Source: Brachionus manjavacas
Taxonomy: Eukaryota > Rotifera > Eurotatoria > Ploima > Brachionidae
NCBI GenBank assembly: GCA_019054805.1
Contig: JAHQIY010000048.1
Span: forward strand, 95,321-159,320
Length of the DNA stretch: 64,000 bases
Direction: 5' to 3'
A model generated the notes under the pieces. That model was not told where the DNA came from and did not search any database. It was given only the letters and a program-made list of their open reading frames with translations. Positions 25,901 to 64,000 of this stretch are shown in pieces; the first letter of the stretch is position 1, and the number at the start of each line of letters is the position of its first letter. A program made the translations under genes and the position numbers.

Positions 25901-26780
25901 TAATGAAATTATACCAAGGTAAAAATAAATTTAATATTGTAGCATATTAAAAATACTTAAAATTTTTTTTACTATCACTTTTAGATCGTGATCATTAACT
26001 TTATTTTGCCATAAAATTACCCAAAGCCCAATCGAAGCCTAATAGTGGTTTTTTTTCGGCTGCTTTTTTTGCCTGTTTTTTGTATTCTCTTGAATTTTTT
26101 CCCTTTTGATTCGATCTGGTTGTTACTGCTTTATCTTTTTCAGTCTTTTTGTCGTTAATGCAGTCAGCTGATTTGGACCTTTTGGATTTACCAGATGCTT
26201 TTTTTATAGATGTTCTAATTCTATTCTTTGTGGTCGGATTTTGAGCCTGCTTGATGTCATCATAATCATTAGACAAATACTTTTGCCTCTTTTTGCTTAT
26301 ATAATCAACTAATGATTTTTGGTTGACAAATTTACGCTCATTATTCAAATCATGATACCTGATAATGTATTTGATTTTTTCATCGAAATCGTCTTGGACA
26401 TCCAGCTCTGCGTAAATGTCCGATAAACTTCGTGCAGCTGACAGCGAATTTTCATTTGAAGCTATCGATGATTTGGACTCGTAAATGTCATTTAAGCTGG
26501 AATTAGTAGAGCCTTTTTTCAGAATGGACTTGAAGGCTGTATTAGCAGATATTCTAGGATCGTTAGACACCGATCTTGACCTTCTTTTATTTCTAATATC
26601 TTCACAAGATGTTCTCAAATATTCACAAAATGTAACAGTTTTTGGCTGATCTCTAACTAAAGACTTTTCGCCACTCTTTCTGATTGATTCTATCAGCAGT
26701 TTGTTTGTGCTTTGTAGGCTTTTTATTAACCTGTGACAATCTACGCGTAATTTATCAGTACTTATTGATGATTTATCCAT
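22929..26780 (-). CDS. MIIP: MIIP (migration and invasion inhibitory protein) homologue, three exons
   Basis: Exons 26021-26780, 23459-23680 and 22929-23410 join in phase to 1464 nt, 487 residues (human MIIP 388). Exon 1 is Ser/Lys-rich and ends KPLLGFDWAL, matching the RPYLGYDWI motif of MIIP. Exon 2 contains the PDDFW-EL-RFR segment that follows it in the family. Exon 3 has C-HSYKLNDRLFPVPV, then LCPVCKS, then FKISIPKSKI...PIR and FEDTLSLSENCMAGY, matching in order the YRVNRRLFPVPV, CRLC, VRVSIPLSIL and DTLALPRHCLLGWD blocks of human MIIP. The cysteines at 328, 353 and 356 could bind zinc. Intron 1 is unusually long (2340 bp) and holds a palindromic repeat. The first 13 codons and upstream region are copied into every tandem unit to the right. 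Confidence 0.83.
23851..23876 (+). repeat. T14-G12 homopolymer junction in MIIP intron 1
   Basis: A run of 14 T followed by 12 G, the only long G run in this AT-rich window. On the transcribed (minus) strand it is C12A14. It could be a slippage hot spot or a sequencing artefact. Confidence 0.6.
24340..24680. repeat. Palindromic element in MIIP intron 1
   Basis: About 24375-24425 and 24583-24632 are inverted copies sharing atcttctgaaacag and ttttgatcccatcggtgatg. Both strands read as acidic peptide pieces (ETSSET-TP, FDPIGD), and the plus strand continues about 50 codons (FEIDEIAYVDLKIISEIKDF). It may be an internally deleted transposon with coding ends. I cannot name the family. Confidence 0.5.
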
Positions 26781-28289
26781 GTGAAATCAATTTTTTTTTC
26801 TTTCTACTTTGGTCCTTAATCAAATTCACTTATCTTTTTCTAAAATTTTGTTTCCATGGTATTATATTTATTTAGTTTAAGAAGGACAGAACAATTTTTT
26901 AAATAGAAGGCTTTCAATATAGTCTTAAAAATCTAACATTAATGGCTGTCAGTATCGAACACAATAAATTTAGTAAAAATTACCACAAACTTATTTAAAG
27001 TATCAACAAAAATTATATGTTTTTATCTCTTTATCTTTTTTCCGAACATATTATAAATAAAATAATTAAATCAATGAAAACCTAACAAATCTATTAAATT
27101 TACAACTTTTATCACATAAACTGCAACTAAAATCTTAAAAAATCAAAATTTGTTTTTATTGACAACAAATTAAGCATTCATCCAAATAGTAAATGACTTG
27201 AAGTTTTTATTGATAAAAGTGAACATTTTTATGCAATCCGTCAATCAGACCAAATCAAGTGAAAGCTTATTACTTAATCCTTGAGACGAAACTCTTAATG
27301 TTGCGGAATCATTTCCGTTTCAAAAAGTCTTGCAAAAGTCTAACAAATAGATAAGAACCAAGAAAATAGAATTTAAATACCTGAATTTTTTGATAATTTT
27401 TGAGGAAATGGAAGGAAATTTTTGAGAGTTAAAGAGCAAACAAGATGAGATTAGTCGATGTTATTGTCGATTCATGGGTCAGCTTTGGTTTTAGAATTGA
27501 TCAGTGATAATCGATGCAAATTCAAAGAATCAGATGAGGCTCATTCGAATCATCCCGAACAAATGATTGTACTAAGAAAAAAAATTACATTTTTCTCGTA
27601 GATTTTTTTAATTTTTCTTTTACTTAAAAGGTTTTTTTATTGATTAAATGGAAAAAATTATGTTTTTACTTATTAAAAAAATTGACACAATATTAACTTT
27701 ATTATTGCATTATTTTCTTTTGGCGATTGTTATTAATTCTGTGGAATTTTTACTAAAAAAATTGTGCACAAATATTAAGAGTCAACATTAATCATTCATT
27801 TTCAATTTGTGAATTTTAATTGAGATAAAGAGAAGTTTAAAACCTAAAAAGGATTTTAAAATTGAATGAAAAATCAAGATTGCTGTTGATTTAATGATTT
27901 GAATTAACCATTTTAAAAATTTACGATTTTAAAATTTAAAAAAAAATAATTTTTTTATTTCTTTTTTTTTTAATTTTACAATTTATTTACTGATTTTACG
28001 TAAAAATGGCGAATTTATGTCATGAACGTGAAAAATTTTAAAATGAAACTAAATAGAATATGGCAAATTGAAGTTTGAGATCAAGATCAAAAGATATAAA
28101 TATAAATTGTATTATTTTTTTTTGATAATAAAAAAGAAATAAATTTTTTCCAAAGCAATTAATTGACATGTCATGTCAAGTTTATTTTCATTTAAAAAAT
28201 TTTAAAATTTCCCTTTTGATCCAACTTTAATAAGTTTAAATATTTTAATTGATTTTAATGAAAACTTACTTTTAAAGACAAAAAAATTT
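26781..28289. promoter_or_regulatory. MIIP 5' flank, AT-rich, copied in every unit
   Basis: Upstream region of MIIP on the minus strand. No gene is visible. Because it is inside the duplicated arm, complete copies precede each truncated MIIP fragment in the array. Confidence 0.4.
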
Positions 28290-28415
28290 ACTGTTTTAAA
28301 AATTAATAATAATAAAAATAATAATAGTAATAATAATAAGCTACAGCAGGAAACCTGTGGAGCGAGACTAGATGAAGTTTTGCTATGGTAGCTATCTTTC
28401 TGCGAAAAAAAAAAT
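28290..28415 (-). repeat. LINE/SINE-type 3' tail with (TAA)n, orientation minus
   Basis: A (aat)n/(taa)n tract is followed by gctacagcagg...gctatggtagct. The mirrored arrangement at 29238-29346 ends gccgtagc then (tta)n. The two tails share gctac-gca and tatggtagc and look like members of one diverged family facing away from each other. Confidence 0.5.
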
Positions 28416-29237
28416 TCTTCATTAAATATGCAATATTAAAATATATTTAAAAAATAACATTATTTAAGTTCGAATGAGTGGATATAAAAGTTATAAATTT
28501 GAATTTTTGAATTAATTTAACTTGAATTATTTAATTTGTTGATTGTTTTTGTTAAATAATTTAGAGATCATTTATTTTGATGTTAATTTGATAATGAACC
28601 ATTATTAGACATAACATGTCTAGTAAATTTTAGTATTTATTTCTTAAAAATTATCAAAATCATTAGATTAATTAATTTTTTAAATTTTAAATGATCGTTT
28701 TGAGCTTAAAGTTTGATTTGAAACTCCAATTTGCCTAGAATTTTTATTATCAGTATTCTATGATAATAATAAGAAAATAACTTTCTTTAAAAAAAGATAA
28801 ATAATTTATCTAATTTACTTGTTTCTTTAATTGATCATTATAATTATTAGAAAAAAAAGAAAAAATCCTCTAGCATTTTAAAATCTCAAATATTAAAAGT
28901 TTTTAATAGAAAATTTCTGATTTTTTTATTTAATCCAGGTGTTTTCTTTTGCTTTTTGATAGATAATGTCTTTAACCTTTTCATGTTATTAATTATTATT
29001 TATTTGTTTTCTGTTCGAGCATACGCTCCTTCAGATTAAAAAAAATAAATAAAATAATTAAAACAGTTTAAAAAATTTTAAAATTTAAAGTAAATTATTT
29101 TTCATTTATCAATGAAAGGATGAGATACAAAAATAATAATTAAAGAGCTGTTTAGTTAATAAAAAGATGGAGTTGGGAGAAAAAAAAAATACTATTAGAT
29201 TACAAAATCTTATCAGTTTCTCTTATTTCTGTACTTT

Positions 29238-29310
29238 TCCTTTTATTGCGTAGTGTGCTACCATAGGCGATCTCCTAGTAGTCCGTCTCCGCAAGCTTGC
29301 TTGCCGTAGC

Positions 29311-29346
<36 letters not shown>
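29238..29346 (+). repeat. LINE/SINE-type 3' tail with (TTA)n
   Basis: Conserved tail (attgcgtagtgtgctaccat to cttgccgtagc) followed by (tta)n. Its inverted copies are at 43985-44100 and in each tandem unit, where the trinucleotide tract length varies. Confidence 0.6.
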
Positions 29347-29347
<1 letters not shown>

Positions 29348-29351
29348 AAAC

Positions 29352-29523
29352 AAAATTTAGTTTGCCATGTGTCAGACCATACTAACAATCTCTCCAGATC
29401 CAACCGCATCTCTAGCGAATTCTGTCGCCACTCCACTGATCTGGCCAGCTTTCCATCATCCGCTTAGAGCCTGCAAAGGTCAGGCATATCATTGATGAAG
29501 ATCAGAGGACCAAGGACTGATCC
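29352..29523 (-). pseudogene. LINE RT fragment in the left arm, internally deleted
   Basis: On the minus strand reads GSVLGPLIFINDMPDL, then DDGKLARSVEWRQNSLEMRLDLERLLVWSDTW, i.e. RT motifs around the catalytic DD box. Compared with the right-arm copies it lacks about 225 bp of downstream coding sequence, so it joins directly to the (TTA)n tract. Confidence 0.75.
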
Positions 29524-29610
29524 TTTAATTTACTAATGATGTTTGGTTTTGTTAAACTCTTAGTGGGCTGACCATCTACCTTTCCTTAATTTTTATAATT
29601 TTTTTTAATA

Positions 29611-29962
29611 AGAGTCCAAGTCTGGACTTTTTTTTTCAAATTTGCTAGATCAAGATTTACATCAAAGAATTTAAATACTAATGGGTTGTCTAATCAATAT
29701 AGATTTGCCATATTTTAGAATTTTCGTGTAATTTTAGATAAAAAGTCTTCACATTCATTTAATGCAAAAAAGATCTCACGATCATGTTAAGGTATAAAAA
29801 ATGACTGGACAAAATGCTTCGACAGTAGTTGAGAATTAGGCGCAAATTTTCTTTGCTAGAACAATTACTCTACATAAATGGAAAAACAGGAACTACTAGG
29901 ACTATAAAAAAAAAGTCCGGACTTGGATTTGACTTGATACTTGTGACTTTTAAACAACTCTG
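29611..29962. mobile_element. hAT-type MITE, left end decayed
   Basis: Same family as 17782-18305: inner agtcca...ggact inverted pair and right terminus gacttttaaacaactctg. The left outer terminus is missing. Copies in the tandem units (for example 43148-43496) have the terminal CAGAG mutated to CAAAG. Confidence 0.7.
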
Positions 29963-30358
29963 CGTTTCATCTTCAAGCTTTTTGAAGTTAAAATTTTTCA
30001 GCTTTAATGAATAAAAAAGAAAAACAAATCTTTTAAATGTTAAAACTTTAAGTTTGGGGAAACATAACTTTGATTTTTAATTATTAAAATTTTTTATCTA
30101 ATCCGAAAATTTTAAATTTTAATTTTAATGCTTTTAGCATCAATAATGCATAAACAATAATATTTAACTAAAAAAATTTTTAAACTTTTTCCTTTGAAAA
30201 GTAATCATTTTAAATTTTGTTTTTGATGCTTTTATTTCATATATTATTTGAACTTAATAATTCAATAAGTAATAAAGGAAGGGTTGCGCAGCAACTAAAT
30301 AAATTATTTTTTATAAAGCAGAGAATTCGAAAATAAATTATTTTCAGTGTTTAAAAAA

Positions 30359-32235
30359 ATGAATCTGACGATAAACGAAGCTACCAAAATGATAGAATAT
30401 TGTTCATCATTTGACCAGATAGACGATATTTTTGACTCTGAAAAAGGATTTAATTATTTTGCAAAATTTATAAAACATGCTAAAACAATTTTTTTTGATG
30501 AAACTGAATTTATGAAAATATGCGAAGAAAACTCGTTTTACGAATTTTTTAATAATATTCTTTGTTTGTCAGCCTCTAATATTCAATTATCAACTATAAA
30601 AGATTACACCTATTTTGATAATATTTTGCATTTTCATGAAACTACAAGCCGTAATGAACGGAAAGTATTCTTTTTAGTCAGCATTGTAGATTTAATTAAC
30701 AGATTTATTACTTCGATTAAATTTCGAACAATTTTAATTGAAAAAAATGGACTAAAAACCCATTTAGATTTAATCAAAGTACTAAATGAGGATGAAGAGA
30801 TTTTTGATAAGAGATATTTTGGTGTCATCATCTTAAATGTAAATTGGTTAAGCAAATTGGCTGATGAGAATAAAAATATTTGGACCGATTTGAAAGCAAT
30901 AGATATATTGACAAATTATATGAGAAATTTTGAGTTTTACAAAATTTATGCAATTATGATTCTGGCAAATATAGCGGATGACAAAGATTTGGAATCTCTA
31001 GCCGAATTTGATCTGGCTATTGAGATCTTTACAGAAATGAGTGTTGAATGCATTAGTCAACCAAACAAAGTAATAGAACAAGAATTTTTCAATTTAGATA
31101 AAATTATAAAATTTAAAATTAAAAGTAAGTTTTGAAATTTTTGCATGTATTATGGACTTACTCAAAAATTTATTTAGATATAATAGATGTAGAAAACAAT
31201 TGCTTAATTTCAATAACTGGTTTATTGTTAGCTCTCTACAAAATATCTATTAACGATAAGCGAAAATCAGAAATTTACAAAAAGCCAAATTTTAAAGAAT
31301 CTCTATTGAGTTTAATTTACGCTGGTAATGATGCCGAAAAACAGCATGCCATACAACTTTTGATTCAATTATGCTTTGATAAAGATATTTTATTTGAAAT
31401 AAAAAAAGAAAGTGAATTAGTTTGTTTTATTCAAAATTTGTTGTCATCAAAAACAATTAAATACAAACAACTTGAAAAAGCTTGCAGTAGCTTTTTATGG
31501 ATTTTAAAGCAAGAAGATAAGATAATCACTTCAAATGGAAAACATGTAATGATAAGTTATAATTCTGCCACTCGTGAGCTATGCTTGAAAATACGAGATT
31601 TTCTAATGAGCAAAAATTTTGATGTTTGGATTGATACTGAAGATATAAATGGTTCAAGTTGTGACTCAATGGCAAAGGCAATCGAAGATTCTCAATTCGT
31701 TTTAATTTGTGTGACAGAAAAGTATCGCAAAAGCTATGCTTGCGAAGGCGAGGCAAAATATGCATATAAGTTGAAAAAAAATATAATACCATGCATCATG
31801 GAGAAGGGATACCATTCTGTAGGCGGCTGGCTTGGCTTCATCATATCTGACAAGATTTTTATAGATTTCACCAAATATGAACTTGACGATTGCTTTAAGA
31901 GGCTTTTGAATCAAATAATGCATCTAAAAAATGATTTAAATCAAGCAGAAAAAATAGAAAAAAAAGCTGATGAAAGCATCCACAAAAATGATAAACAAGA
32001 TTTCATTAATTGGGACCATGGGAAAACTAAAGAATGGTTTTTGAAAAACTCTTTTGAAGAAATATTTAAAGTTCTAGAACCAATTAATGGAAAAGGCCTA
32101 AGACAACTTAATGAATTACACACTCATACACCAGAGTTTTTTTACAAATCTCTGACGGCCAGCAATTCAATTACCATGAAAGATGTTATTAATTTTGTTT
32201 CAATATTTAAGGACCTTGTTGAAAATAAAGAATAA
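30359..32235 (+). CDS. ARM-TIR-SAM-like protein, intact left-arm copy
   Basis: Two exons (30359-31124 and 31178-32235; 53-bp GT-AG intron, phase 1) give 607 residues. The first 370 or so are helical with armadillo-like features (LALYKISIND, HAIQLLIQLCFD, ILANIADDKDL). Residues about 376-510 form a TIR domain: KHVMISYNSATRELCLKIRDFL (strand A/helix A), FDVWIDTEDI (BB-loop region), AMAKAIEDSQFVLICVT-like core, and SYACEGEAKYAYKLKKNIIPCIM, where the Glu aligns with the catalytic Glu of NAD-cleaving TIRs such as SARM1. Residues about 533-600 look SAM-like (W--GKTKEWFLKNSFEEIFKVLEPINGKGLRQL). SARM1 has ARM-SAM-SAM-TIR; here the order is ARM-TIR-SAM. A NADase or scaffold role in immunity or stress is inference. 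An AG acceptor just before 30348 suggests a 5' UTR intron. Four damaged copies lie in inverted orientation to the right. Confidence 0.88.
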
Positions 32236-32814
32236 AAAAATTAATTAAAAATATCCAGAATAAGTTTATTTGATTGAATCATTTGTCTGAATTCTTTTAC
32301 TAAATATATCGGGTGTTCAAAAGTGATCATGTGTTCTTATTATATCAAATTTAATACAAATATAAAATTTCTCTAACAATTTACTATTAAGTAACGGGTG
32401 AAGAAGCTTCCGGACTAAGTTTGTGCTGTCATAATTTTTGATCTATCTGTAACCGGTTTATAATAAAACAATGTTTAATCTTTAAAAGCTTTATTTAAGT
32501 TATTGAGCGTTCTGAAGTTCTAAGAATGGAATTCTTATTTATACCTATATGCTCGTGCCAAGAACACGAGCTTGTAATTAAGTCAAGATGTGAGCTAAGA
32601 ACAGAAAAAATGACCCTTCGAAATCGTGTATATTTATATTATGGAAAAATTCGTGCATTAAAAAAAATAATATTTTATGGAAACACCAATTATTACTCCG
32701 ACAGATGTCAACTAGTGTTAAATGTAATAAATAGTTTGATGGCTGGAATTTACCATTTTGAAAATTTACGATTTGAAATTCTCTTAAAAAATTCATATTT
32801 TTCTTTCTTTTTAG
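32236..32814. other. 3' flank of the TIR gene
   Basis: No gene that I can support; the 98-codon open frame at 32526 has no recognisable features. Left-arm base 32680 corresponds to the start of each tandem unit. Confidence 0.4.
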
Positions 32815-32937
32815 TAACGTAATTATCCGAATTTAGTGACATGTCACTACAGAATCATTTACATGCTATAACAGAGTGTCACTAAAATAGAGTACTCTAT
32901 TTTAGTGACATGTCACTCAATTCGGATGATTACGTTA
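32815..32937. mobile_element. 123-bp palindromic MITE (left arm)
   Basis: Ends TAACGTAAT and ATTACGTTA with subterminal atccgaa / ttcggat and agtgacatgtcact repeats, and a central perfect palindrome around agagtactct. TA at both ends suggests a Tc1/mariner-type TA target duplication. Identical inverted copy at 40130-40252. Not part of the tandem unit. Confidence 0.7.
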
Positions 32938-33569
32938 ATTTTACAAATTTTTAATTAAAATTTTTTACTTTTTTCACTGAACTTAAAAATAATCAAAATG
33001 AATTTTAAAAACAAAGAGCTGTATTTTTTTAAGTAGGTAAACAGAATTTACAATGTAGAAAAATGACTTTCGTTTTTGAATTGAAATATTTTTTACTAAA
33101 TAAACTATGAAATGTTATTGTTTTATGGAATTTCGATAAAATGTTTCAAGATAATAAAAGTTTTTATCTAAAATTTTAGATGGTCCTAACAATATTCAAA
33201 TCAATCATTATATACATGAAAAGGTTTTTTTTTTTAAAAAGCAAAAAAAAAAACACTGGGATTAAATAAAATGAGGGTTTTTTTTAACATGTAAAAGGGC
33301 TGCTGTCTCTGTGAAAGGAATTGCAGAGTCATATATAGTTGAAAGTGGCAATGCAATTAATCAGATCGTTTATCAAGATAAATTTCTTACCATGAAATTG
33401 CTTCCTTTCATCGATAAGCATCATTCAGAAAAAAAATTTTTTTTTCTGACTTGATGTACTCTCGCTACTCAGAAGCATCATTGGACTTAATGATCGAATC
33501 GATCATGTAAACTAGATACCAAAGGACTGGTCACAATGCCTAATAGTCAAACTCTCCAAGAAAGGCAAC

Positions 33570-34188
33570 AAGCCTTTCTGTGATCTGTGACAACTGGTGA
33601 GGAATATCACTGCTATCAATATCAAGCAAGGCGTTCTGCAGCATAACTCTGGAAAAAATCAGGAACTCTTTGGATGCTATACTTGGAGAAGAACACGCAG
33701 GATAAAGACGAGGTAAATGATGCTTTAACCAGATATTTTTACTTAGAAACTTCATTGAACAAAGTCTGGAATGGAATAGTCCCCTGTATCTTAACTTCAT
33801 TGACTTCAAGAAAGTCTCTGAAAGCATACACAGAAAAACCTTGTGAGCCATATTTAGATCTTATGGTGTGCCATAGAAATTAGTTAACTTGATAAAACTC
33901 TTCTATTAGAAATTTGAGTGTAGCGTGATTCTGGAAAAAGGACAATCTGAGAGCTTCAAAGTGTGTAAAGGAGTCAGACAAGGGTGCGTTCTCTCTCCGA
34001 CACTATTCCTAATACTGATTGACTATGTCATGAAGAAAACAATTGTCAGTGCGAGGGGTATACAATGGGGATTAACAGAAAAGCTTAAAGACTTAGACTT
34101 TGCGGACGATTTGGTGCTAATATCTAATACAGAAGCAGATATGCATATAAAGACGCAAGATTTGGCGAACAGCGCTAAATCCAAATAA
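33570..34188 (+). pseudogene. LINE RT remnant (left arm)
   Basis: Frames shift, but the order is clear: a FIDFKKVSESIHRKTLWAI-like motif, then FKVCKGVRQGCVLSPTLFLI, then LKDLDFADDLVLIS with the catalytic FADD box intact, then DMHIKTQDLANSAK. Upstream parts contain several stops. The conserved order fits an RTE/L1-like non-LTR RT. A 103-codon minus-strand frame across it is a shadow. Confidence 0.85.
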
Positions 34189-34575
34189 AAAAGGCCAAAA
34201 CGAAAGTTATGTGCATAAACACAAAATTTCTTTTTCCTTACCAAGTTTTCCAATTTTAAATCATTCATGAAAGTTTTAAATCTGGAACTGCACGTGGTCA
34301 TCTTTGTTTTTGTACAAAGGGGGCAGGGGTAGATTTTTTGGTACACAAAATTTTTATTATTCTATCAAATTCTTTTTTACATAATTCAAAAAAAAAAATA
34401 AAAGAATCATAATGAGTAGAAGGTTACGTAACTAATATTTATTGAATTGCTTGAATTATAAAATAACGAAGCTGTTTAGTTTTTATTTTTTTACTATAAG
34501 CTTTGGAAAAATTTTAATAATAAATTTCAGAAGAGATTGATCATTATTGAATGTTAATTTAAAAATTATCTAAAC

Positions 34576-35695
34576 ATGGCCATCAACGAATTTTTTGAGC
34601 ATCCTCGAGTAGAAGGACAAAACAACCGCAATGTAACATTTCCTCGTTTGCGATGGATATCGAAAAAAAAATTTGAAGAGGAAATAAATAGTTTTAGTGA
34701 TTTGGAAATACATCCATGTCTCAATGAGGATCAGCCTGTAAGAAGCCGTATATTTTTGGGAAAATTAATTCCGAATTCAAACAGCTCCTTTTCTTCAAAT
34801 CATGAAGATCAATTGATTTCCGAACTGATTGGAAGTGTTTTCTATTCGAGTGAAAAAATTTGGAAATTAAAAATCACATTCTCTGGCTTGACATATGAAA
34901 TAGCCGAGGGTTTTCTCGTTTTAAACATACAAGACCCCAGCTCATATTTTTGGAATGCCAACGATGCCTTTCAAAATGTACAACTTCCACACTACGCACT
35001 CAAAGTGTCACTTGACTCATCAGATTCTCACTACCAATATGCAGGAAGACGTCCGATACAAACTTTAAATTCTAGATATTCGATTATTTTCTATTCAAAT
35101 GCTTGGCTCAAAGTGGAAAACCAGCTTGAATTGACTTTTGGCAAGATTAAAACAGATTTAAGGCTGCTAATGGTTCCTTATGAGAATATGGAAATAGGGC
35201 ATTCTAAATACGAAGTGTTATGCTTAAAGGCATCGCCAGCTAGCCTACAGATTTTGTGTCGATCTGCCATTCGGAACTATCTTAATCGTTCACAGAAAAA
35301 TATAAAAGCACTCAGCAATCCATTGGGAAAAAACATTTTTCTTCCAAATGCACTTGTCAACTATTTGAAATATCCTTCATTCTTGAACATAGGCGATTGC
35401 ATGTTTAAAGAAGAGAAGCTTGTTCATGAAAACGATGAGTATGAGCTTTTGATTGACCAAGATAATGGAGATTTAATATGCAAAAAAATTGTCAGAATAT
35501 GCTGATATATCTAAAGAGTGGATAATGCAAAAAAATACAGATTGTATTCTGCTGCATCCGTTTAGCACTGTTTTTTATAGTTGCTCAAAAAAAAAGGCCA
35601 TTAAAAATGATTTCGTCAATTTAAATGATTCTATACTACCATATAAATTTTTTGTAAATTGGGAAAATTTGACTTTTGAAATAAAACATCTCTAA
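34576..35695 (+). CDS. SOCS-box protein, apparent frameshift near the C-terminus
   Basis: Open from the ATG at 34576 for 309 codons to 35505. The N-terminal 215 or so residues are not recognised. Residues about 222-270 form a SOCS box: a BC-box (SLQILCRSAIR) that should bind Elongin C, then NIFLPNALVNYLKYP in the Cul5-box position. This predicts a substrate receptor for a Cullin-RING ubiquitin ligase. At the A7 run 35482-35488 the frame shifts; the alternate frame continues LSEYADISKEWIMQK for about 70 more residues to 35695, so the real protein is probably about 377 residues. The shift could be a base-calling error or a real lesion. Single copy, in the loop between the inverted arms; its ATG lies on the arm boundary. 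Confidence 0.72.
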
Positions 35696-38418
35696 AAAAA
35701 ATTTTTAATTCATTAATAACTTTTAATAATTTATTTAATTTTCATTAGTCTAAGTTTGTCATGAAAATTTTTTTCTATTTAAAATTTTTCAAAACAAGAA
35801 TAGGTTTTATTGATAAAAATCAAACAGAATAATATTCAAAATACCTCTTATAATAAAATTAAATCATCTGATAGTTTTCCGGGTTTAACTTTAATGCATT
35901 TTTAATTTTTAGTTGAAATTTTAAGAATAAATTTTAGGAGAATAAAAAGTTTAATGTTTTTTTGAGTTTAAAATTGCGCCTTTTTTTTTTCAAATTTATC
36001 ACAAATTATGTGATCATCGAAAATGTTGTGAGAAAAAGTTCACAAACCCAGCATAATCGCAATTCGGACATTCTTTAATATTTGAACACAAATTTTTTTC
36101 CTTAAGTTTTTATTCTGCTTATTCTTCACACTAATATTTTTAAAGCTGAAGTCAATAAGCTTTAATTTGGCTCAAATTTAATTTTAAATGTTACAAAAGT
36201 AACTTCCTTCTGATAACAGATTCCTAATTTCAACAAAAAATTTTTCTCACTTTTTAACTCTTTTTAAAATTCTGTTTAATCAGAGAATCTCTCGAAATCA
36301 AAATAATTTTCATTGCATTCTAAGTAATTAATGTCACTTTTGGTTCTTTTTTTAAAATATTTGGATTAATAAAAAAAAATTATCAGAAGGAATTTACTTT
36401 TTATAATATGCATTGTAAATTTAGAACAATTTTTCTATTTCAAACCTAATAATAAGTTGTAGTGTTTAATAAAAATAAAAAATATTTTATTTTCAATTAT
36501 TGGGAAAAAGTATTTTTTATTAGTAAAAAAGAGGAACTTAGCAAAATTGAAAAATTGCTGAAAAAAAGTGAAAAGCCATCTTTGAGCTTTTGTTAATTTT
36601 TTATCCGTATTTATATATAAACCATCAAAATTACTGTTTTTAAAACTAATAAAAAAAAATTATTTTACAAAAAATGCAAATGAGCAATTAAAAATGGAGT
36701 GGCAAATATTTTTTGACAAAATAAAATTTGGTTTAAGAGCTTTTGGTGAAACTGTCCAAAAAATTAAATCTGTTCCATACACATGAAAACATTTAGATTT
36801 TTTTGAATAAGTTTGAAAAAAATAAAAAATGGCTGTTGAAAGAATCAATGCCAATAAATCTAAAACCTTGTTTTTATCTTTTAAAAATGTGACTCAATTT
36901 TTTTTCGATTTTATTTAAAAATATTCAAATTTGAATTTGAATCCCTATTTATTTTAAAAGCTTTACTTTTTGGGAATATTTTTAAGCTGTCGTAAAGCGA
37001 AAGATTTATTGGAAAAAATTTACTCAGTTTAGATAACACTTTATTCAGTTTTAACAGAAAATCTCAAATATTTTCTTTTCTAATTAATTATTATTTGAGA
37101 AAATTTTTAAAGATTGAGTCAATCTTGAGATGTCTAATCACTTAACAATTTAATCTGAAGATTTTTAAATTAATGTTGATGACAATTATTAATTAGATAA
37201 TTTTCGATTAAGTCTCAAGATAAAAAAACACGCTATTTTAGTTTTAAATGAAAAAAAAATATTTTCTAATCACAAAATCGCTTATTTATAAGTAAAGCTG
37301 TTAAGATTCAATGAATAAATTATTTATTTAAGATAGAAAACAATAATAGAATTATTCGTTTGATACTAAATTATTTAAGTTTTCAATAAGATTTCTACGA
37401 ATGCAATAAACAAAATCTATAATTCTGTTAATGTTTGAAAATTTTCCATCATTCATAATATTAACATTAATCAGATAGAGAAAAAGAGAATTGATAAAGA
37501 TAGAGATTCCAAGATTTTTAATTGATGATTTATCTCATAATTTTGCTAGCAGCTTGAACAATAGAAGATGTTTATAATTTTTTATTTAATTTTTACAGTT
37601 TATTTTACAAAAATTTATAATTTTTATACCGATTAACAGGAATTTCTAAATTTAAGTTAAATCATATTTTTTTCGGTCTTTCTTGTTTAAGTGTAAATAT
37701 TTGAAAACATTTTTATGCTTGTTTTTATTTCTTTAGCGTTGGATATTTTAATTTTTTTCTAAAAAAATTAGAGAAATAAATAAAATGTTTATAACAATTT
37801 ATTTAACATGGATGATCAGACTTTACCTCTATAAGACAAAAAAAAATGAATAAGAAAATACATTTAAAACTATTAATCTAACTTTAAGATTTTATTTTTT
37901 TTCAAGGAATGTTAAGGTTTCAATTAAAAGAATTCTTTGAGACTTGTTTTAAATACCCAAAGATTTAATCTTTTTTATTAAGATCAATTTGAACTTTTTC
38001 ACTATTTAAACTTTATTTTATTCTGTAAAACTACAGAATTTCCAATTATCAATACAATTGATTTAAAAATAATCTTATAATAAATTTTAGATATCGATCA
38101 AATAATTTAGTAGATAATTTACACATTCCTATTAAAAACCCTAATTCCTTAAAATATAAAAACATCTTCTTTATTTCTTCTTTTTTTTAAACCTTCACTT
38201 AAATCTTGCATAAAAATTATTTCTTTTTAGGAGGAGATATTTTTCATTTTGATATTATTCTGTTAATTTTTTGTGGATAATTATAAAGGTTAGTTTAAAA
38301 AAATTCCTTTGTTGTAAAAGTTTAAATTTCAATAGGTAACAAAAATAAATACAAACCTTAAAAAAATGTTTAGTTATAACAAAATTTAAAATTAAAACAA
38401 AATTCAAAAAAATAGAAA
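35696..38418. other. Loop region without recognisable genes
   Basis: 2.7 kb of very AT-rich, unique sequence. The longest open frames are low-complexity. No RT, TIR or exon-like segment is recognised. Confidence 0.4.
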
Positions 38419-38535
38419 ATGTCCAAAAACGGTCAAATTTTTCGGAGTTCTAGCGTTCAACCGACTGAAAAGCAAGCAAGTAGCGATATGAATTTGCATC
38501 AGCCGAAAAAAATTGCATATCGAAACAATGTTTAG
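38419..38535 (+). pseudogene. Gene start truncated by the inverted-duplication boundary
   Basis: ATG with codon usage unlike the surroundings opens 38 codons (MSKNGQIFRSSSVQPTEKQ...PKKIAYRNN) and runs straight into the right arm at 38528, where a stop follows. It looks like the 5' exon of a gene whose remainder was displaced when the arm was inserted. Too short to name. Confidence 0.4.
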
Positions 38536-38916
38536 ATAATTTTTAAATTAACATTCAATAATGATCAATCTCTTCTGAAATTTATTATTAAAATTTTTCC
38601 AAAGCTTATAGTAAAAAAATAAAAACTAAACAGCTTCGTTATTTTATAATTCAAGCAATTCAATAAATATTAGTTACGTAACCTTCTACTCATTATGATT
38701 CTTTTATTTTTTTTTTTGAATTATGTAAAAAAGAATTTGATAGAATAATAAAAATTTTGTGTACCAAAAAATCTACCCCTGCCCCCTTTGTACAAAAACA
38801 AAGGTGACCACGTGCAGTTCCAGGTTTAAAACTTTCATGAATGATTTAAAATTGGAAAACTTGGTAAGGAAAAAGAAATTTTGTGTTTATGCACATAACT
38901 TTCGTTTTGGCCTTTT

Positions 38917-39535
38917 TTATTTGGATTTAGCGCTGTTCGCCAAATCTTGCGTCTTTATATGCATATCTGCTTCTGTATTAGATATTAGCACCAAATCGTC
39001 CGCAAAGTCTAAGTCTTTAAGCTTTTCTGTTAATCCCCATTGTATACCCCTCGCACTGACAATTGTTTTCTTCATGACATAGTCAATCAGTATTAGGAAT
39101 AGTGTCGGAGAGAGAACGCACCCTTGTCTGACTCCTTTACACACTTTGAAGCCCTCAGATTGTCCTTTTTCCAGAATCACACTTCACTCAAATTTCTCAT
39201 AGAAGAGTTTTATCAAGTTAACTAGTTTCTATGGCACACCATAAGATCTAAATATGGCTCACAAGGTTTTTCTGTGTATGCTTTCAGAGACTTTCTTGAA
39301 GTCAATGAAGTTAAGATACAGGGGACTATTCCATTCCAGACTTTGTTCAATGAAGTTTCTAAGTAAAAATATCTGGTTTAAGCATCATTTACCTCGTCTT
39401 TATCCTGCGTGTTCTTCTCCAAGTATAGCATCCAAAGAGTTCCTGATTTTTTCCAGAGTTATGCTGCAGAACGCCTTGCTTGATATTGATAGCAGTGATA
39501 TTCCTCACCAGTTGTCACAGATCACAGAAAGGCTT
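38917..39535 (-). pseudogene. LINE RT remnant (right arm copy)
   Basis: Inverted copy of 33570-34188 with the same decayed RT and FADD box. Differs by a few bases (for example EGFKVCKG for ESFKVCKG). Confidence 0.82.
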
Positions 39536-43496: not shown

Positions 43497-43583
43497 ATTA
43501 AAAAAAATTATAAAAATTAAAGGAAAGGTAGATGGTCAGCCCACTAAGAGTTTAACAAAACCAAACATCATTAGTAAATTAAA

Positions 43584-53000: not shown

Positions 53001-53048
53001 ATGGATAAATCATCAATAAGTACTGATAAATTACGCGTAATACTCTAG
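53001..53048 (+). pseudogene. MIIP 5' fragment, unit 2
   Basis: Same 15-codon fusion as 46545-46592. Confidence 0.8.
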
Positions 53049-53754
53049 CATTTTAAAATCTCAAATATTAAAAGTTTTTAAAAGAAAATTTCTGATTTTT
53101 TTATTTAATCCAGGTGTTTTCTTTTGCTTTTTGATAGATAATGTCTTTAACCTTTTCATGTTATTAATTATTATTTATTTGTTTTCTGTTCGAGCATACG
53201 CTCCTTCAGATTAAAAAAAATAAATAAAATAATTAAAACAGTTTAAAAAATTTTAAAATTTAAAGTAAATTATTTTTCATTTATCAATGAAAGGATGAGA
53301 TACAAAAACCATAAAATATTATTTTTTTTAATGCACGAATTTTTCCATAATATAAATATACACGATTTCGAAGGGTCATTTTTTCTGTTCTTAGCTCACA
53401 TCTTGACTTAATTACAAGCTCGTGTTCTTGGCACGAGCATATAGGTATAAATAAGAATTCCATTCTTAGAACTTCAGAACGTTCAATAACTTAAATAAAG
53501 CTTTTAAAGATTAAACATTGTTTTATTATAAACCGGTTACAGATAGATCAAAAATTATGACAGCACAAACTTAGTCCGGAAGCTTCTTCACCCGTTACTT
53601 AATAGTAAATTGTTAGAGAAATTTTATATTTGTATTAAATTTGATATAATAAGAACACATGATCACTTTTGAACACCCGATATATTTAGTAAAAGAATTC
53701 AGACAAATGATTCAATCAAATAAACTTATTCTGGATATTTTTAATTAATTTTTT

Positions 53755-55628
53755 TTATTCTTTATTTTCAACAAGGTCCTTAAATATTGAAACAAAATTA
53801 ATAACATCTTTCATGGTAATTGAATTGCTGGCCGTCAGAGATTTGTAAAAAAACTCTGGTGTATGAGTGTGTAATTCATTAAGTTGTCTTAGGCCTTTTC
53901 CATTAATTGGTTCTAGAACTTTAAATATTTCTTCAAAAGAATTTTTCAAAAACCATTTTTTAGTTTTCCCATGGTCCCAATTAATGAAATCTTGTTTATC
54001 ATTTTTGTGGATGCTTTCATCAGCTTTTTTTCTATTTTTTCTGCTTGATTTAAATCATTTTTTAGATGCATTATTTGATTCAAAAGCCTCTTAAAGCAAT
54101 CGTCAAGTTCATATTTGGTGAAATCTATAAAAATCTTGTCAGATATGATGAATCCAAGCCAGCCGCCTACAGAATGGTATCCCTTCTCCATGATGCATGG
54201 TATTATATTTTTTCAACTTATATGCATATTTTGCCTCGCCTTCGCAAGCATAGCTTTTGCGATACTTTTCTGTCACACAAATTAAAACGAATTGAGAATC
54301 TTCGATTGCCTTTGCCATTGAGTCACAACTTGAACCATTTATATCTTCAGTATCAATCCAAACATCAAAATTTTTGCTCATTAGAAAATCTCGTATTTTC
54401 AAGCATAGCTCACGAGTGGCAGAATTATAACTTATCATTACATGTTTTCCATTTGAAGTGATTATCTTATCTTCTTGCTTTAAAATCCATAAAAAGCTAC
54501 TGCAAGCTTTTTCAAGTTGTTTGTATTCAATTGTTTTTGATGACAACAAATTTTGAATAAAACAAACTAATTCACTTTCTTTTTTTATTTCAAATAAAAT
54601 ATCTTTATCAAAGCATAATTGAATCAAAAGTTGTATGGCATGCTGTTTTTCGGCATCATTACCAGCGTAAATTAAACTCAATAGAGATTCTTTAAAATTT
54701 GGCTTTTTGTAAATTTCTAATTTTCGCTTATCGTTAATAGATATTTTGTAGAGAGCTAACAATAAACCAGTTATTGAAATTAAGCAATTGTTTTCTACAT
54801 CTATTATATCTAAATAAATTTTTGAGTAAGTCCATAATACATGCAAAAATTTCAAAACTTACTTTTAATTTTAAATTTTATAATTTTATCTAAATTGAAA
54901 AATTCTTGTTCTATTACTTTGTTTGGTTGACTAATGCATTCAACACTCATTTCTGTAAAGATCTCAATAGCCAGATCAAATTCGGCTAGAGATTCCAAAT
55001 CTTTGTCATCCGCTATATTTGCCAGAATCATAATTGCATAAATTTTGTAAAACTCAAAATTTCTCATATAATTTGTCAATATATCTATTGCTTTCAAATC
55101 GGTCCAAATATTTTTATTCTCATCAGCCAATTTGCTTAACCAATTTACATTTAAGATGATGACACCAAAATATCTCTTATCAAAAATCTCTTCATCCTCA
55201 TTTAGTACTTTGATTAAATCTAAATGGGTTTTTAGTCCATTTTTTTCAATTAAAATTGTTCGAAATTTAATCGAAGTAATAAATCTGTTAATTAAATCTA
55301 CAATGCTGACTAAAAAGAATACTTTCCGTTCATTACGGCTTGTAGTTTCATGAAAATGCAAAATATTATCAAAATAGGTGTAATCTTTTATAGTTGATAA
55401 TTGAATATTGGAGGCTGACAAACAAAGAATATTATTAAAAAATTCGTAAAACGAGTTTTCTTCGCATATTTTCATAAATTCAGTTTCATCAAAAAAAATT
55501 GTTTTAGCATGTTTTATAAATTTTGCAAAATAATTAAATCCTTTTTCAGAGTCAAAAATATCGTCTATCTGGTCAAATGATGAACAATATTCTATTATTT
55601 TGGTAGCTTCGTTTATCGTCAGATTCAT
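53755..55628 (-). pseudogene. ARM-TIR-SAM-like gene, unit 3 copy
   Basis: Exon 1 is open (54863-55628). Exon 2 is shifted at the T-runs near 54209 (6 for 8) and 54026 (7 for 8). The ARM half is intact; the TIR domain is broken in its second half. Confidence 0.82.
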
Positions 55629-56501
55629 TTTTTAAACACTGAAAATAATTTATTTTCGAATTCTCTGCTTTATAAAAAATAATTTATTTAGTTGCTGCGC
55701 AACCCTTCCTTTATTACTTATTGAATTATTAAGTTCAAATAATATTTGAAATAAAAGCATCAAAAACAATATTTAAAATGATTACTTTTCAAAGGAAAAA
55801 GTTTAAAAATTTTTTTAGTTAAATATTATTGTTTATGCATTATTGATGCTAAAAGCATTAAAATTAAAATTTAAAATTTTCGGATTAGATAAAAAATTTT
55901 AATAATTAAAAATCAAAGTTATGTTTCCCCAAACTTAACTACTCGGAATGGCAAAAAAGCGTTCAAGTCAAAGTTTTAACATTTAAAAGATTTGTTTTTC
56001 TTTTTTATTCATTAAAGTTGAATAAAGTTGAAAAATTTTAACTTCAAAAAGCTTGAAGATGAAACGCAAAGTTGTTTAAAAGTCACAAGTATCAAGTCAA
56101 ATCCAAGTCCGGGCTTTTTTTATAGTCCTAGTAGTTCCTGTTTTTCCATTTATGTAGAGTAATTATTCTAGCAAAGAAAATTTGCGCCTAATTCTCAACT
56201 ACTGTCGAAGCATTTTGTCAAGTCATTTTTTATACCTTAACATGATCGTGAGATCTTTTTTGCATTAAATGAATGTGAAGACTTTTTATCTAAAATTACA
56301 CGAAAATTCTAAAATATGGCAAATCTATATTGATTAGACAACCCATTAGTATTTAAATTTTTTGATGTAAATCTTGATCTAGCAAATTTGAAAAAAAGTC
56401 CAGACTTGGACTCTTATTAAAAAAATTATAAAAATTAAAGGAAAGGTAGATGGTCAGCCCACTAAGAGTTTAACAAAACCAAACATCATTAGTAAATTAA
56501 A

Positions 56502-56840
56502 GGATCAGTCCTTGGTCCTCTGATCTTCATCAATGATATGCCTGACCTTTGCAGGCTCTAAGTGGATGATGGAAAGCTGGCCAGATCAGTGGAGTGGCGA
56601 CAGAATTCGCTAGAGATGCGGTTGGATCTGGAGAGATTGTTAGTATGGTCTGACACATGGCAAACTAAATTCAACTTAGAGAAGAGTGTCGTAATGCATT
56701 TTGGAGCGAAAAACAGGCGTTATTACTCTAAGCTTGAAGGTCACACACTAGCGAAGACAACGAAAGAACGCGATTTCGGAATCATCATCACCAGCGATTT
56801 TAAGTCAAACGAGTATTACGAATCCCACTCCTCTATGTAG
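56502..56840 (+). pseudogene. LINE RT remnant, unit 3
   Basis: Copy of 43584-43921 followed by the (TAA)n tract and tail. Confidence 0.75.
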
Positions 56841-59461: not shown

Positions 59462-59509
59462 ATGGATAAATCATCAATAAGTACTGATAAATTACGCGTA
59501 ATACTCTAG
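59462..59509 (+). pseudogene. MIIP 5' fragment, unit 3
   Basis: Same 15-codon fusion as in units 1 and 2. Confidence 0.8.
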
Positions 59510-60214
59510 CATTTTAAAATCTCAAATATTAAAAGTTTTTAAAAGAAAATTTCTGATTTTTTTATTTAATCCAGGTGTTTTCTTTTGCTTTTTGATAGAT
59601 AATGTCTTTAACCTTTTCATGTTATTAATTATTATTTATTTGTTTTCTGTTCGAGCATACGCTCCTTCAGATTAAAAAAAATAAATAAAATAATTAAAAC
59701 AGTTTAAAAAATTTTAAAATTTAAAGTAAATTATTTTTCATTTATCAATGAAAGGATGAGATACAAAAACCATAAAATATTATTTTTTTTAATGCACGAA
59801 TTTTTCCATAATATAAATATACACGATTTCGAAGGGTCATTTTTTCTGTTCTTAGCTCACATCTTGACTTAATTACAAGCTCGTGTTCTTGGCACGAGCA
59901 TATAGGTATAAATAAGAATTCCATTCTTAGAACTTCAGAACGTTCAATAACTTAAATAAAGCTTTTAAAGATTAAACATTGTTTTATTATAAACCGGTTA
60001 CAGATAGATCAAAAATTATGACAGCACAAACTTAGTCCGGAAGCTTCTTCACCCGTTACTTAATAGTAAATTGTTAGAGAAATTTTATATTTGTATTAAA
60101 TTTGATATAATAAGAACACATGATCACTTTTGAACACCCGATATATTTAGTAAAAGAATTCAGACAAATGATTCAATCAAATAAACTTATTCTGGATATT
60201 TTTAATTAATTTTT

Positions 60215-62083
60215 TTATTCTTTATTTTCAACAAGGTCCTTAAATATTGAAACAAAATTAATAACATCTTTCATGGTAATTGAATTGCTGGCCGTCAGAG
60301 ATTTGTAAAAACTCTGGTGTATGAGTGTGTAATTCATTAAGTTGTCTTAGGCCTTTTCCATTAATTGGTTCTAGAACTTTAAATATTTCTTCAAAAGAAT
60401 TTTTCAAAAACCATTTTTAGTTTTCCCATGGTCCCAATTAATGAAATCTTGTTTATCATTTTTGTGGATGCTTTCATCAGCTTTTTTTTCTATTTTTTCT
60501 GCTTGATTTAAATCATTTTTTAGATGCATTATTTGATTCAAAAGCCTCTTAAAGCAATCGTCAAGTTCATATTTGGTGAAATCTATAAAAATCTTGTCAG
60601 ATATGATGAATCCAAGCCAGCCGCCTACAGAATGGTATCCCTTCTCCATGATGCATGGTATTATATTTTTCAACTTATATGCATATTTTGCCTCGCCTTC
60701 GCAAGCATAGCTTTTGCGATACTTTTCTGTCACACAAATTAAAACGAATTGAGAATCTTCGATTGCCTTTGCCATTGAGTCACAACTTGAACCATTTATA
60801 TCTTCAGTATCAATCCAAACATCAAAATTTTTGCTCATTAGAAAATCTCGTATTTTCAAGCATAGCTCACGAGTGGCAGAATTATAACTTATCATTACAT
60901 GTTTTCCATTTGAAGTGATTATCTTATCTTCTTGCTTTAAAATCCATAAAAAGCTACTGCAAGCTTTTTCAAGTTGTTTGTATTCAATTGTTTTTGATGA
61001 CAACAAATTTTGAATAAAACAAACTAATTCACTTTCTTTTTTTATTTCAAATAAAATATCTTTATCAAAGCATAATTGAATCAAAAGTTGTATGGCATGC
61101 TGTTTTTCGGCATCATTACCAGCGTAAATTAAACTCAATAGAGATTCTTTAAAATTTGGCTTTTTGTAAATTTCTAATTTTCGCTTATCGTTAATAGATA
61201 TTTTGTAGAGAGCTAACAATAAACCAGTTATTGAAATTAAGCAATTGTTTTCTACATCTATTATATCTAAATAAATTTTTGAGTAAGTCCATAATACATG
61301 CAAAAATTTCAAAACTTACTTTTAATTTTAAATTTTATAATTTTATCTAAATTGAAAAATTCTTGTTCTATTACTTTGTTTGGTTGACTAATGCATTCAA
61401 CACTCATTTCTGTAAAGATCTCAATAGCCAGATCAAATTCGGCTAGAGATTCCAAATCTTTGTCATCCGCTATATTTGCCAGAATCATAATTGCATAAAT
61501 TTTGTAAAACTCAAAATTTCTCATATAATTTGTCAATATATCTATTGCTTTCAAATCGGTCCAAATATTTTTATTCTCATCAGCCAATTTGCTTAACCAA
61601 TTTACATTTAAGATGATGACACCAAAATATCTCTTATCAAAAATCTCTTCATCCTCATTTAGTACTTTGATTAAATCTAAATGGGTTTTTAGTCCATTTT
61701 TTCAATTAAAATTGTTCGAAATTTAATCGAAGTAATAAATCTGTTAATTAAATCTACAATGCTGACTAAAAAGAATACTTTCCGTTCATTACGGCTTGTA
61801 GTTTCATGAAAATGCAAAATATTATCAAAATAGGTGTAATCTTTTATAGTTGATAATTGAATATTGGAGGCTGACAAACAAAGAATATTATTAAAAAATT
61901 CGTAAAACGAGTTTTCTTCGCATATTTTCATAAATTCAGTTTCATCAAAAAAATTGTTTTAGCATGTTTTATAAATTTTGCAAAATAATTAAATCCTTTT
62001 TCAGAGTCAAAAATATCGTCTATCTGGTCAAATGATGAACAATATTCTATTATTTTGGTAGCTTCGTTTATCGTCAGATTCAT
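60215..62083 (-). pseudogene. ARM-TIR-SAM-like gene, unit 4 copy
   Basis: Homopolymer changes near 61950 and 61697 break exon 1. A 3-base loss near 60666 keeps frame and leaves the TIR domain open through 60404. Runs near 60413 and 60307 break the SAM-like end. The 302-codon open stretch 60404-61312 covers late ARM plus the whole TIR domain. Confidence 0.82.
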
Positions 62084-62962
62084 TTTTTTAAACACTGAAA
62101 ATAATTTATTTTCGAATTCTCTGCTTTATAAAAAATAATTTATTTAGTTGCTGCGCAACCCTTCCTTTATTACTTATTGAATTATTAAGTTCAAATAATA
62201 TTTGAAATAAAAGCATCAAAAACAATATTTAAAATGATTACTTTTCAAAGGAAAAAGTTTAAAAATTTTTTTAGTTAAATATTATTGTTTATGCATTATT
62301 GATGCTAAAAGCATTAAAATTAAAATTTAAAATTTTCGGATTAGATAAAAAATTTTAATAATTAAAAATCAAAGTTATGTTTCCCCAAACTTAACTACTC
62401 GGAATGGCAAAAAAGCGTTCAAGTCAAAGTTTTAACATTTAAAAGATTTGTTTTTCTTTTTTATTCATTAAAGTTGAATAAAGTTGAAAAATTTTAACTT
62501 CAAAAAGCTTGAAGATGAAACGCAAAGTTGTTTAAAAGTCACAAGTATCAAGTCAAATCCAAGTCCGGGCTTTTTTTTTATAGTCCTAGTAGTTCCTGTT
62601 TTTCCATTTATGTAGAGTAATTATTCTAGCAAAGAAAATTTGCGCCTAATTCTCAACTACTGTCGAAGCATTTTGTCCAGTCATTTTTTATACCTTAACA
62701 TGATCGTGAGATCTTTTTTGCATTAAATGAATGTGAAGACTTTTTATCTAAAATTACACGAAAATTCTAAAATATGGCAAATCTATATTGATTAGACAAC
62801 CCATTAGTATTTAAATTTTTTGATGTAAATCTTGATCTAGCAAATTTGAAAAAAAAAGTCCAGACTTGGACTCTTATTAAAAAAAATTATAAAAATTAAA
62901 GGAAAGGTAGATGGTCAGCCCACTAAGAGTTTAACAAAACCAAACATCATTAGTAAATTAAA

Positions 62963-63301
62963 GGATCAGTCCTTGGTCCTCTGATCTTCATCAATGATAT
63001 GCCTGACCTTTGCAGGCTCTAAGTGGATGATGGAAAGCTGGCCAGATCAGTGGAGTGGCGACAGAATTCGCTAGAGATGCGGTTGGATCTGGAGAGATTG
63101 TTAGTATGGTCTGACACATGGCAAACTAAATTCAACTTAGAGAAGAGTGTCGTAATGCATTTTGGAGCGAAAAACAGGCGTTATTACTCTAAGCTTGAAG
63201 GTCACACACTAGCGAAGACAACGAAAGAACGCGATTTCGGAATCATCATCACCAGCGATTTTAAGTCAAACGAGTATTACGAATCCCACTCCTCTATGTA
63301 G
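62963..63301 (+). pseudogene. LINE RT remnant, unit 4
   Basis: Copy of 43584-43921, followed by (TAA)n at about 63364-63403. Confidence 0.75.
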
Positions 63302-63361
63302 CTTCTACCTAATAATACAAAAATTTTCTGACTCTTAAGATCTTATCTATATTTTTTGTTT

Positions 63362-63404
<43 letters not shown>

Positions 63405-64000
63405 GCTACGGCAAGCAAGCTTGCGGAGACGGACTACTAGGAGATCGCCTATGGTAGCACACTACGCAATAAAAAGGAAAAGTACAGAAATAAGAGAAAC
63501 TGATAAGATTTTGTAATCTAATAGTATTTTTTTCTCTCAACTCCATCTTTTTATTAACCAAACAGATCTTTAATTATTATTTTTGTATCTCATCCTTTCA
63601 TTGATAAATGAAAAAAAATTTACTTTAAAATTTTTAAACTGTTTTAATTATTTTATTTTATTTTTTTTATCTGAAGGAACGTATACTCGAACAGAAAACA
63701 AATAAATAATAATTAATAACATGAAAAAGGTTAAAGACATTATCTATCAAAAAGCAAAAGAAAACACCTGGATTAAATAAAAAAATCAGAAATTTTCTTT
63801 TAAAAACTTTTAATATTTGAGATTTTAAAATGCTAGAGTATTTTTTCTTTTTTTTCTAATAATTATAATGATCAATTAAAGAAACAAGTAAATTAGATAA
63901 ATTATTTATCTTTTTTTAAAGAAAGTTATTTTCTTATTATTATCATAGAATACTGATAATAAAAATTCTAGGCAAATTGGAGTTTCAAATCAAACTTTAA

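Follow-up and report, generated by a model that had tools for sequence, protein, structure and literature searches.

The window studied here is the whole 64-kb stretch of Brachionus manjavacas contig JAHQIY010000048.1 (C48) between positions 95321 and 159320, and it contains a gene for a TIR-domain protein that is present in many local copies. We think that this gene was probably amplified by a template-switch rearrangement of the duplication/inverted-triplication/duplication (DUP-TRP/INV-DUP) type, to which a loop was added. The window has a GC content of 26.8%, and its end coincides with the end of C48, a contig of 159,320 bases. Searches covered the genome assembly (114.17 Mb in 61 contigs), and a second contig, C26, was compared with the window over C26:1-60000.

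The native path is written L-e-g-t-s-R, where L and R are the left and right flanks, e is the native intergenic block (26742-29139), g is the gene block (aligned as 29354-32680), t is the tail block (32681-34577, with a dispersed repeat at 33516-34228), and s is the block at 34578-38533; in these copies all blocks are on the plus strand. Block e contains pieces of dispersed repeats, and as a complete block it was found only in this array (best 40 of 1875 candidates scored). Its last 276 bp (28864-29139) are single in the left copy and form an inverted pair in every complete unit of the array.

Layout and junctions of the array

Self-comparison showed that 26742-34577 recurs in inverted orientation at 38528-46583 (minus strand; t', the second gene copy and e') as two blocks of 98.4% and 97.7% identity separated by an indel of about 240 bp, which agrees with the inverted 8-kb arm that the original prediction had assigned to 26743-34577. 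To the right of this arm, head-to-tail units of about 6.46 kb begin at 46853, 53309 and 59770 (spacings 6456 and 6461). At least four such units had been predicted; three are complete and the fourth is cut off at the end of C48. All five predicted copies of the gene were found, the left copy being accompanied by minus-strand gene blocks at 40388-43753 (copy 2), 46853-50215 (copy 3), 53309-56671 (copy 4) and 59770-63132 (copy 5).

A search with 401 bases of the unit sequence detected the same repeat at the start of C26. There the array occupies C26:1-38340 and consists of six gene blocks, two on the minus and four on the plus strand, after which t, s and, from 44149, the right flank follow. The array had been predicted to run on beyond the window; the end of the window is a contig end inside the repeat. 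C48 ends within a repeat, thus the array breaks the assembly. C48 contributes five gene blocks and C26 six, a total of 11, which may undercount the true number because repeats collapse in assemblies.

In the assembly the flanks are present once, the gene 11 times, t three times and s twice. The t copies are plus (32681), inverted (40387) and plus (C26:38341), i.e. the middle copy is the inverted one. Block s occurs in the window and at C26:40196-44148, and then the right flank follows once, so that the right side of the triplication is a duplicated segment. On the left side the copy number steps from one straight to many, because the array lies where a two-copy step would be expected. Judged from the sequence, two 8-kb arms of about 98% identity and eight identical composite junctions cannot be a matter of chance.

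Junctions were counted in the window and in C26:1-60000 with one mismatch or indel tolerated, and genome-wide with exact 30- and 27-base patterns. Junction A (38528-38533, plus strand) joins 38533 to inverted 34577 through the 6-bp microhomology ATGTTT; it occurs once in the window and C26:1-60000, and the native continuation is found at C26:44149. Junction B joins inverted 26742 to 28864 with a 3-bp insertion, and junction C is a blunt joint between 29139 and inverted 32680. The genome-wide scans found B nine times and C eight times, all on C48 and C26. C is always paired with a B 276 bp away, and an identical closing junction is repeated head to tail: the first one (46576-46858, minus strand) consists of B, an inverted copy of the 276-bp segment and C, and it is repeated at 53032-53314 and 59493-59775. 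The head-to-tail spacing of the units had been recognized correctly in the original prediction, which had missed the inverted copy of 28864-29139 at the junction of each complete unit. A lone B without C lies at C26:14877 and continues through 29140 into a normal forward gene. In the window and C26:1-60000, e is found in its native left context at one place, and s in its native right context likewise at one place. The array unit is cut 13 codons inside a minus-strand open reading frame (ORF, 26001-26786), therefore it is the left copy that carries the native left side, and the unit edge is a derived break. Shared sequence of at least 6 bp was found in 0.6% of 200,000 random joins within the window and at one of the three junctions, for which reason junction A, unlike B and C, has the appearance of a microhomology-mediated join.

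The left flank (window 17001-26741, 9.7 kb) and the right flank (C26:44149-50000, 5.9 kb) each had a single full-length match, namely themselves, the other matches being pieces of dispersed repeats. No further full copy of either flank, such as a second haplotype would provide, was present among the best 40 candidates scored for each. Since each flank matches once, C48 and C26 probably meet in one locus. Comparison of 19 copies of the 276-bp segment revealed a variant with an 8-bp deletion and several substitutions. The variant is complete in the last C48 copy, which belongs to the truncated e block at the contig end (63133-64000, minus strand), and in the first two C26 copies; it is partial at the C26 centre, represented by one base in one more copy, and absent from the other 14. 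Most simply, this would place the end of C48 opposite the start of C26 with a short gap between them, possibly of less than 1 kb within a single e copy.

Proposed mechanism and its relation to known rearrangements

According to the mechanism that we favour, the path would have run through L-e-g-t-s to 38533 and switched strands there to 34577 through the 6-bp microhomology (junction A), then returned through t, g and e to 26742 and jumped forward to 28864 with a 3-bp insertion (junction B). Continuation from 28864 into g, t, s and the right flank would be the exit that closes the rearrangement. In the loop, the path would have jumped back after 276 bp to inverted 32680 (junction C), and repetition of this step would have produced the head-to-tail units. 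The 276-bp inverted repeats left in the units could subsequently have allowed blocks to be inverted and sequence to be exchanged, and the plus units on C26 would be explained in this way. The jumps would have occurred during replication rather than by end-joining. The primary product of A and B alone would have a 1-2-3-2-1 copy profile.

The inverted middle copy and the two novel junctions, A with its 6-bp microhomology and B with its 3-bp insertion, are the features by which a DUP-TRP/INV-DUP is recognized, the triplication layout presupposing that C48 and C26 are linked. Rearrangements of this type were present in 16 of 17 PLP1 patients, and in one of the patients, P113, a two-switch junction was interpreted as the start of rolling-circle amplification (cited portion of PMC4352052). 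The DUP-TRP/INV-DUP junctions tabulated in PMC10766186 have mostly 0-6 bp homology or lie in repeats, and in the same portion of that paper origin-dependent inverted-repeat amplification (ODIRA) is proposed as the common start. The rotifer locus resembles the human PLP1 and MECP2 rearrangements, as they are presented in these portions of PMC4352052 and PMC10766186, in its inverted middle copy, in the duplication beside the triplication and in the scarcity or lack of junction homology. P113 with its two-switch junction is a precedent (PMC4352052), and the closing junction repeated head to tail in the rotifer array is of the kind that rolling-circle amplification would give. It differs from the human cases in that the segments are only a few kb long, the gene is present in at least 11 copies, the looped unit forms both minus and plus blocks, there is no two-copy step on the left, and the source is an animal reference assembly, not patients. 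Among the titles listed by a literature search, conducted mostly outside subscription journals, none dealt with an ARM-TIR-SAM array or with a gene array of inverted, looped structure from the reference genome of an invertebrate.

Several observations weigh against the looping template-switch mechanism. A single looping pass would give minus units and one plus unit, thus a further flip has to be assumed for the three additional plus units on C26. Junctions B and C, having no microhomology, fit end-joining equally. No contig spans the gap between C48 and C26, thus the linkage is presumed and the copy number is that of the assembly. In addition, C26:1-774 is an inverted copy of 764-1533, a palindrome centred on an AT-rich short palindrome; it does not suit a simple junction between the two contigs and could be an artefact of fold-back reads or else mark a real additional flip. 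The left arm diverges from the array over e, g and t and does not diverge in the 3.2 kb from 34302 to 37513. This mosaic structure requires that a diverged copy or haplotype later took part in an exchange or conversion at least once. Finally, pairwise comparison of the complete e blocks (8 copies, 28 pairs) gave 2-18 substitutions over about 3.1 kb, which exceeds the differences between gene blocks and would not be predicted by one copying burst, unless repeat exchange or alignment slippage adds differences. There are 35 variable columns in the e blocks, nine of them occurring solely in the copy that has the variant repeat and several lying in slippage-like runs.

Order of events

The numbers behind this mosaic pattern also bear on the order in which inversion and tandem amplification occurred. 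Substitutions were counted among the 11 gene blocks themselves, after exclusion of all columns with a gap in any copy. In these gap-free columns 16 positions distinguish the left copy from all ten others, which among themselves have only 12 substitutions, all singletons, eight of them in the two C26 copies nearest the C26 start. In t, the left copy is set apart from both others at 17 of the 20 variable positions. The two copies of s together with the end of t differ by six substitutions in 4228 aligned bases, none of which lies before 37514.

The original prediction had taken the substitutions shared by the right-hand copies for derived ones and had concluded that the inversion came first. The separation of the left copy from the others was found as described; its direction is unpolarised. 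We tried to polarise the 16 differences by the paralogues and rejected this approach: the paralogues are only 32-36% identical, and two informative positions hint opposite ways. At position 350, one of seven paralogues has E like the array and none has K, and at position 541 four have E like the left copy, two have K like the array and one has T. The unpolarised differences would fit two diverged haplotypes equally well, therefore they do not show an inversion-first order. Thus, inverted duplication and tandem amplification had both been identified correctly, and what did not hold was the argument for their order. The junction counts (nine B, eight C, with the lone B marking the entry into a normal gene) weakly favour inversion first.

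The e blocks offer another view of the order. Six of their columns have a minority base in at least two copies, two of the six lying beside a gap. Four of these shared columns pair neighbours (W2e/W3e once, Cgh/Cij three times) and two pair non-neighbours (W2e/Cdctr and Cbc/Cgh). Mirrored pairing was not seen among the six shared columns of the eight complete e copies, which would favour, only weakly, inversion before most of the tandem growth.

Some further differences between the copies were observed. The e blocks (43754-46858 and the seven other complete ones) are about four times more variable per kb than the gene blocks, partly due to the variant repeat and slippage. About 240 bp upstream of the gene in the array (43754-43993) are absent from the left copy (29346-29354), and the left copy also lacks 10-bp and 33-bp stretches present in all ten array gene blocks; the direction of these changes is unpolarised.

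Alternative explanations

The strongest alternative, which is possible though considerably less probable than the looping template-switch mechanism, is that the tandem array came first. A tandem duplication with a trapped 276-bp inverted templated insert would have been amplified by unequal crossing-over, and the inverted triplication would have been formed later, with the 276-bp repeats providing homology at one end and junction A closing the other end; the left arm would have been reset when it exchanged sequence with a single-copy haplotype. This scheme accounts well for the constant 276-bp distance between B and C, the only exception being the centre of C26, at which the change from minus to plus array falls within the repeat. 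It also accounts for the left arm, which is single-unit and divergent up to 34301 and then free of substitutions for 3.2 kb, since one exchange would suffice, and the plus array beside the native right flank would need no extra flip. On the other hand, triplication of a ready-made array predicts a mirrored order of variants, and the six shared e columns contain none, a weak objection given the small number of variants.

ODIRA of the yeast type, in which ligation of the leading to the lagging strand at short, closely spaced inverted repeats would have created the inverted triplication, is an improbable origin. An inverted centre copy and inverted junctions are its predicted product (cited portions of PMC10766186 and PMC10766183), and the rotifer locus and the yeast cases have in common that a short segment around a single gene is amplified interstitially and in inverted form (PMC10766183). 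In yeast, however, a spacing of 40-80 bp is preferred and spacings above 1 kb were recorded in 3 of 92 cases (same portion of PMC10766183). In the rotifer locus the path folds back over distances of roughly 4.0 kb (A), 2.1 kb (B) and 3.5 kb (C), that is, the breakpoints lie kilobases rather than tens of bases apart, and two of the three junctions have no homology, A being the exception. With such distances the signature of ODIRA is absent here; secondary loss of a palindrome could hide an ODIRA origin.

It is very unlikely that the structure is an assembly artefact, either a haplotype chimera or fold-back reads inflated by the assembler. Such an origin would agree with the break of the assembly at both contig ends in the array, with the palindrome at the start of C26, which is what fold-back reads give, and with the prevalence of homopolymer indels among the differences between array gene blocks. 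It is contradicted by the base-identical recurrence of junctions B and C at nine and eight places on two contigs, by the substitutions between the arms, owing to which neither arm can be the fold-back of the other, and by the homology at junction A, which with 6 bp is too short for an assembler overlap.

The notion that e is a 2.7-kb transposon bounded by 275-bp terminal inverted repeats, and that it moved or mobilised the gene, is hardly tenable and was rejected. It would be suggested by the 276-bp inverted repeats on either side of each complete e in the array, and by matches to dispersed repeats in parts of e and in about 155 bp at the outer end of the repeat. Against it, no complete e turned up outside C48 and C26 among the best 40 of 1875 candidates scored (counts elsewhere are thus lower bounds), and the dispersed matches cover separate inner parts (mostly 200-1040 and 1320-2004 of the 2605-base query). 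Moreover, there is only a single repeat in the native locus, and e, which in the left copy is native DNA between a minus-strand ORF and the gene, includes the start of the neighbouring ORF.

Reading frames and selection

In the left copy the TIR gene (30359-32235, plus strand) is predicted to consist of exon 1 (30359-31124), a 53-bp GT-AG intron (31125-31177) and exon 2 (31178-32235, with the stop), encoding 607 amino acids. The paralogues are colinear across this intron. The left copy is open over all 607 codons and so are the seven paralogues that were fetched, whereas all ten array copies have at least one frame-changing indel, mostly in runs of A or T. Between array copies (45 pairs) there are on average 0.77 substitutions and 2.44 homopolymer indels per kb, and the number of coding indel columns is highest, eight each, in the copies nearest the two contig ends. 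The indel to substitution ratio, the load near the contig ends and the open frames of the paralogues favour consensus error, thus the frame-changing indels probably reflect unpolished consensus and not decay. Real decay of the array copies is a possible alternative.

Seven of the 16 gene-block differences between the left copy and the array are in coding sequence, four causing amino-acid changes (M11I, S286L, K350E and E541K) and three being silent. These seven are too small a number on which to judge selection. Diversity selection, which the original prediction had considered, is not supported, because the array gene blocks differ from each other by singleton substitutions only. Selection for dosage, with an extra dose of the TIR gene being useful in immunity or NAD signalling whatever the mutational route, is conceivable, though we regard it as doubtful. 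It would fit that the unit holds the whole gene with more than 1 kb upstream, that the gene blocks are nearly identical, and that 11 of the 43 TIR_2 matches in the genome are in the array. Against it stand the frame-changing indels in every array copy, compared with the open left copy and paralogues, and the fact that recent neutral amplification would look alike. Neutral amplification, which had been allowed for from the beginning, explains the data as well as dosage selection does. Most simply, the effect of the array would be more copies of one TIR gene, of putative expression and usefulness.

The TIR protein and its family

The TIR domain (amino acids 379-499; 31546-31908, plus strand; Pfam TIR_2, 5.2e-19) scores 69.4 bits with the profile PF13676, well over the cut-off of 28, and has an invariant C-x-x-E motif with E447. 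This glutamate is invariant in all eight aligned family members and aligns with that of Cat1 and RPS4. Thus the catalytic glutamate of TIR NADases is present, and we consider the protein a putative NADase. In the TIR survey (cited portion of PMC7075850) the corresponding residue, E75, is critical for NADase activity, yet it is frequent in TIRs without activity. Of the ARM-TIR-SAM architecture proposed originally only the TIR part passed the curated cut-off: ARM_PUB scored 17.6 bits (cut-off 33), and SAM_3 16.4 bits (cut-off 22.6) in one of the seven paralogues. Downstream of the TIR there are weak matches to chains 2d8c (E 0.76) and 2e8m (E 0.22), which we take to be SAM domains. The TIR domain is followed by about 108 residues with this weak similarity.

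The protein SARM1 has the domain order ARM, two SAM, TIR. Our protein is similar to it in having a TIR with glutamate at survey position 75 (PMC7075850), in the helical, possibly ARM-type region and the SAM-like stretch, both below cut-off, and in profile matches to SARM1 entries (E 0.04-1). It is dissimilar in that the TIR is central and the SAM-like stretch follows it, whereas SARM1 ends in its TIR (PMC7075850), and in that there are many genes here, SARM1 typically being encoded by one per genome. At the position of the ligand-binding W71 of SARM1 the alignment reads A in our protein and N in five, Y in one and F in one of the seven paralogues. The different domain order and the replacement of W71 make SARM1 orthology unlikely. 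The best match to a solved structure over the TIR was to Cat1, a prokaryotic CRISPR-associated TIR protein (PDB 9mud; E 9.7e-5 with the family profile and 0.0035 with the single protein), with which the TIR domain alone is in common.

Besides the 11 TIR_2 matches in the array there are 32 others in the genome, 31 of them over the cut-off, and whole or partial matches to the protein were counted at about 19 places not belonging to the array. These numbers reveal a dispersed TIR family, of which, on sequence grounds, the array gene is a recently amplified member. Two TIR paralogues adjoin in the same orientation on another contig (C1:7585138-7589188), forming another small cluster of the family.

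Neighbouring genes and other features of the window

The minus-strand ORF 26001-26786, at the left edge of the array, had no Pfam match over the cut-off and is a probable exon of a MIIP-like gene to its left; the neighbouring ORF 22929-23435 has a Pfam MIIP match (6.5e-17), and the two may be exons of one gene. At the left edge of s begins an ORF (34558-35505) that contains a SOCS box (8.9e-6) and, below the threshold, a DM9 repeat; the ORF is duplicated with s, the C26 copy being also open. In the left flank an inverted repeat of about 156 bp (96%) occupies 20148-20306 and 22044-22199, and next to it lies another pair of about 105 bp. The window also contains two actin genes in direct orientation (4817-6291 and 12240-13718), which are identical over 1475 aligned bases except for one 4-bp indel. 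The first copy has a Pfam Actin match, and the pair represents a second very recent duplication in the window.

Implications

As far as the sequence can tell, we are dealing with a well-resolved complex amplification that is real in the assembly and is of a kind known from human disease and yeast. Here it occurs in the reference genome of an animal, and with more copies. It is tempting, if rather improbable in its entirety, to see in it a germline template-switch catastrophe that turned into rolling-circle amplification, is naturally fixed or segregating with its three junctions still legible, and was kept for the dose of TIR NADase, the 276-bp repeats keeping the array flipping and the copy number changing between clones. 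The inverted triplications in the work cited come from patients and selected yeast, and their products are young and often hard to sequence. A readable example around an immune-type gene would allow the order of switches, the self-made repeats and the dosage effect to be compared between strains. Contigs that end in arrays like this one hide gene copy number.

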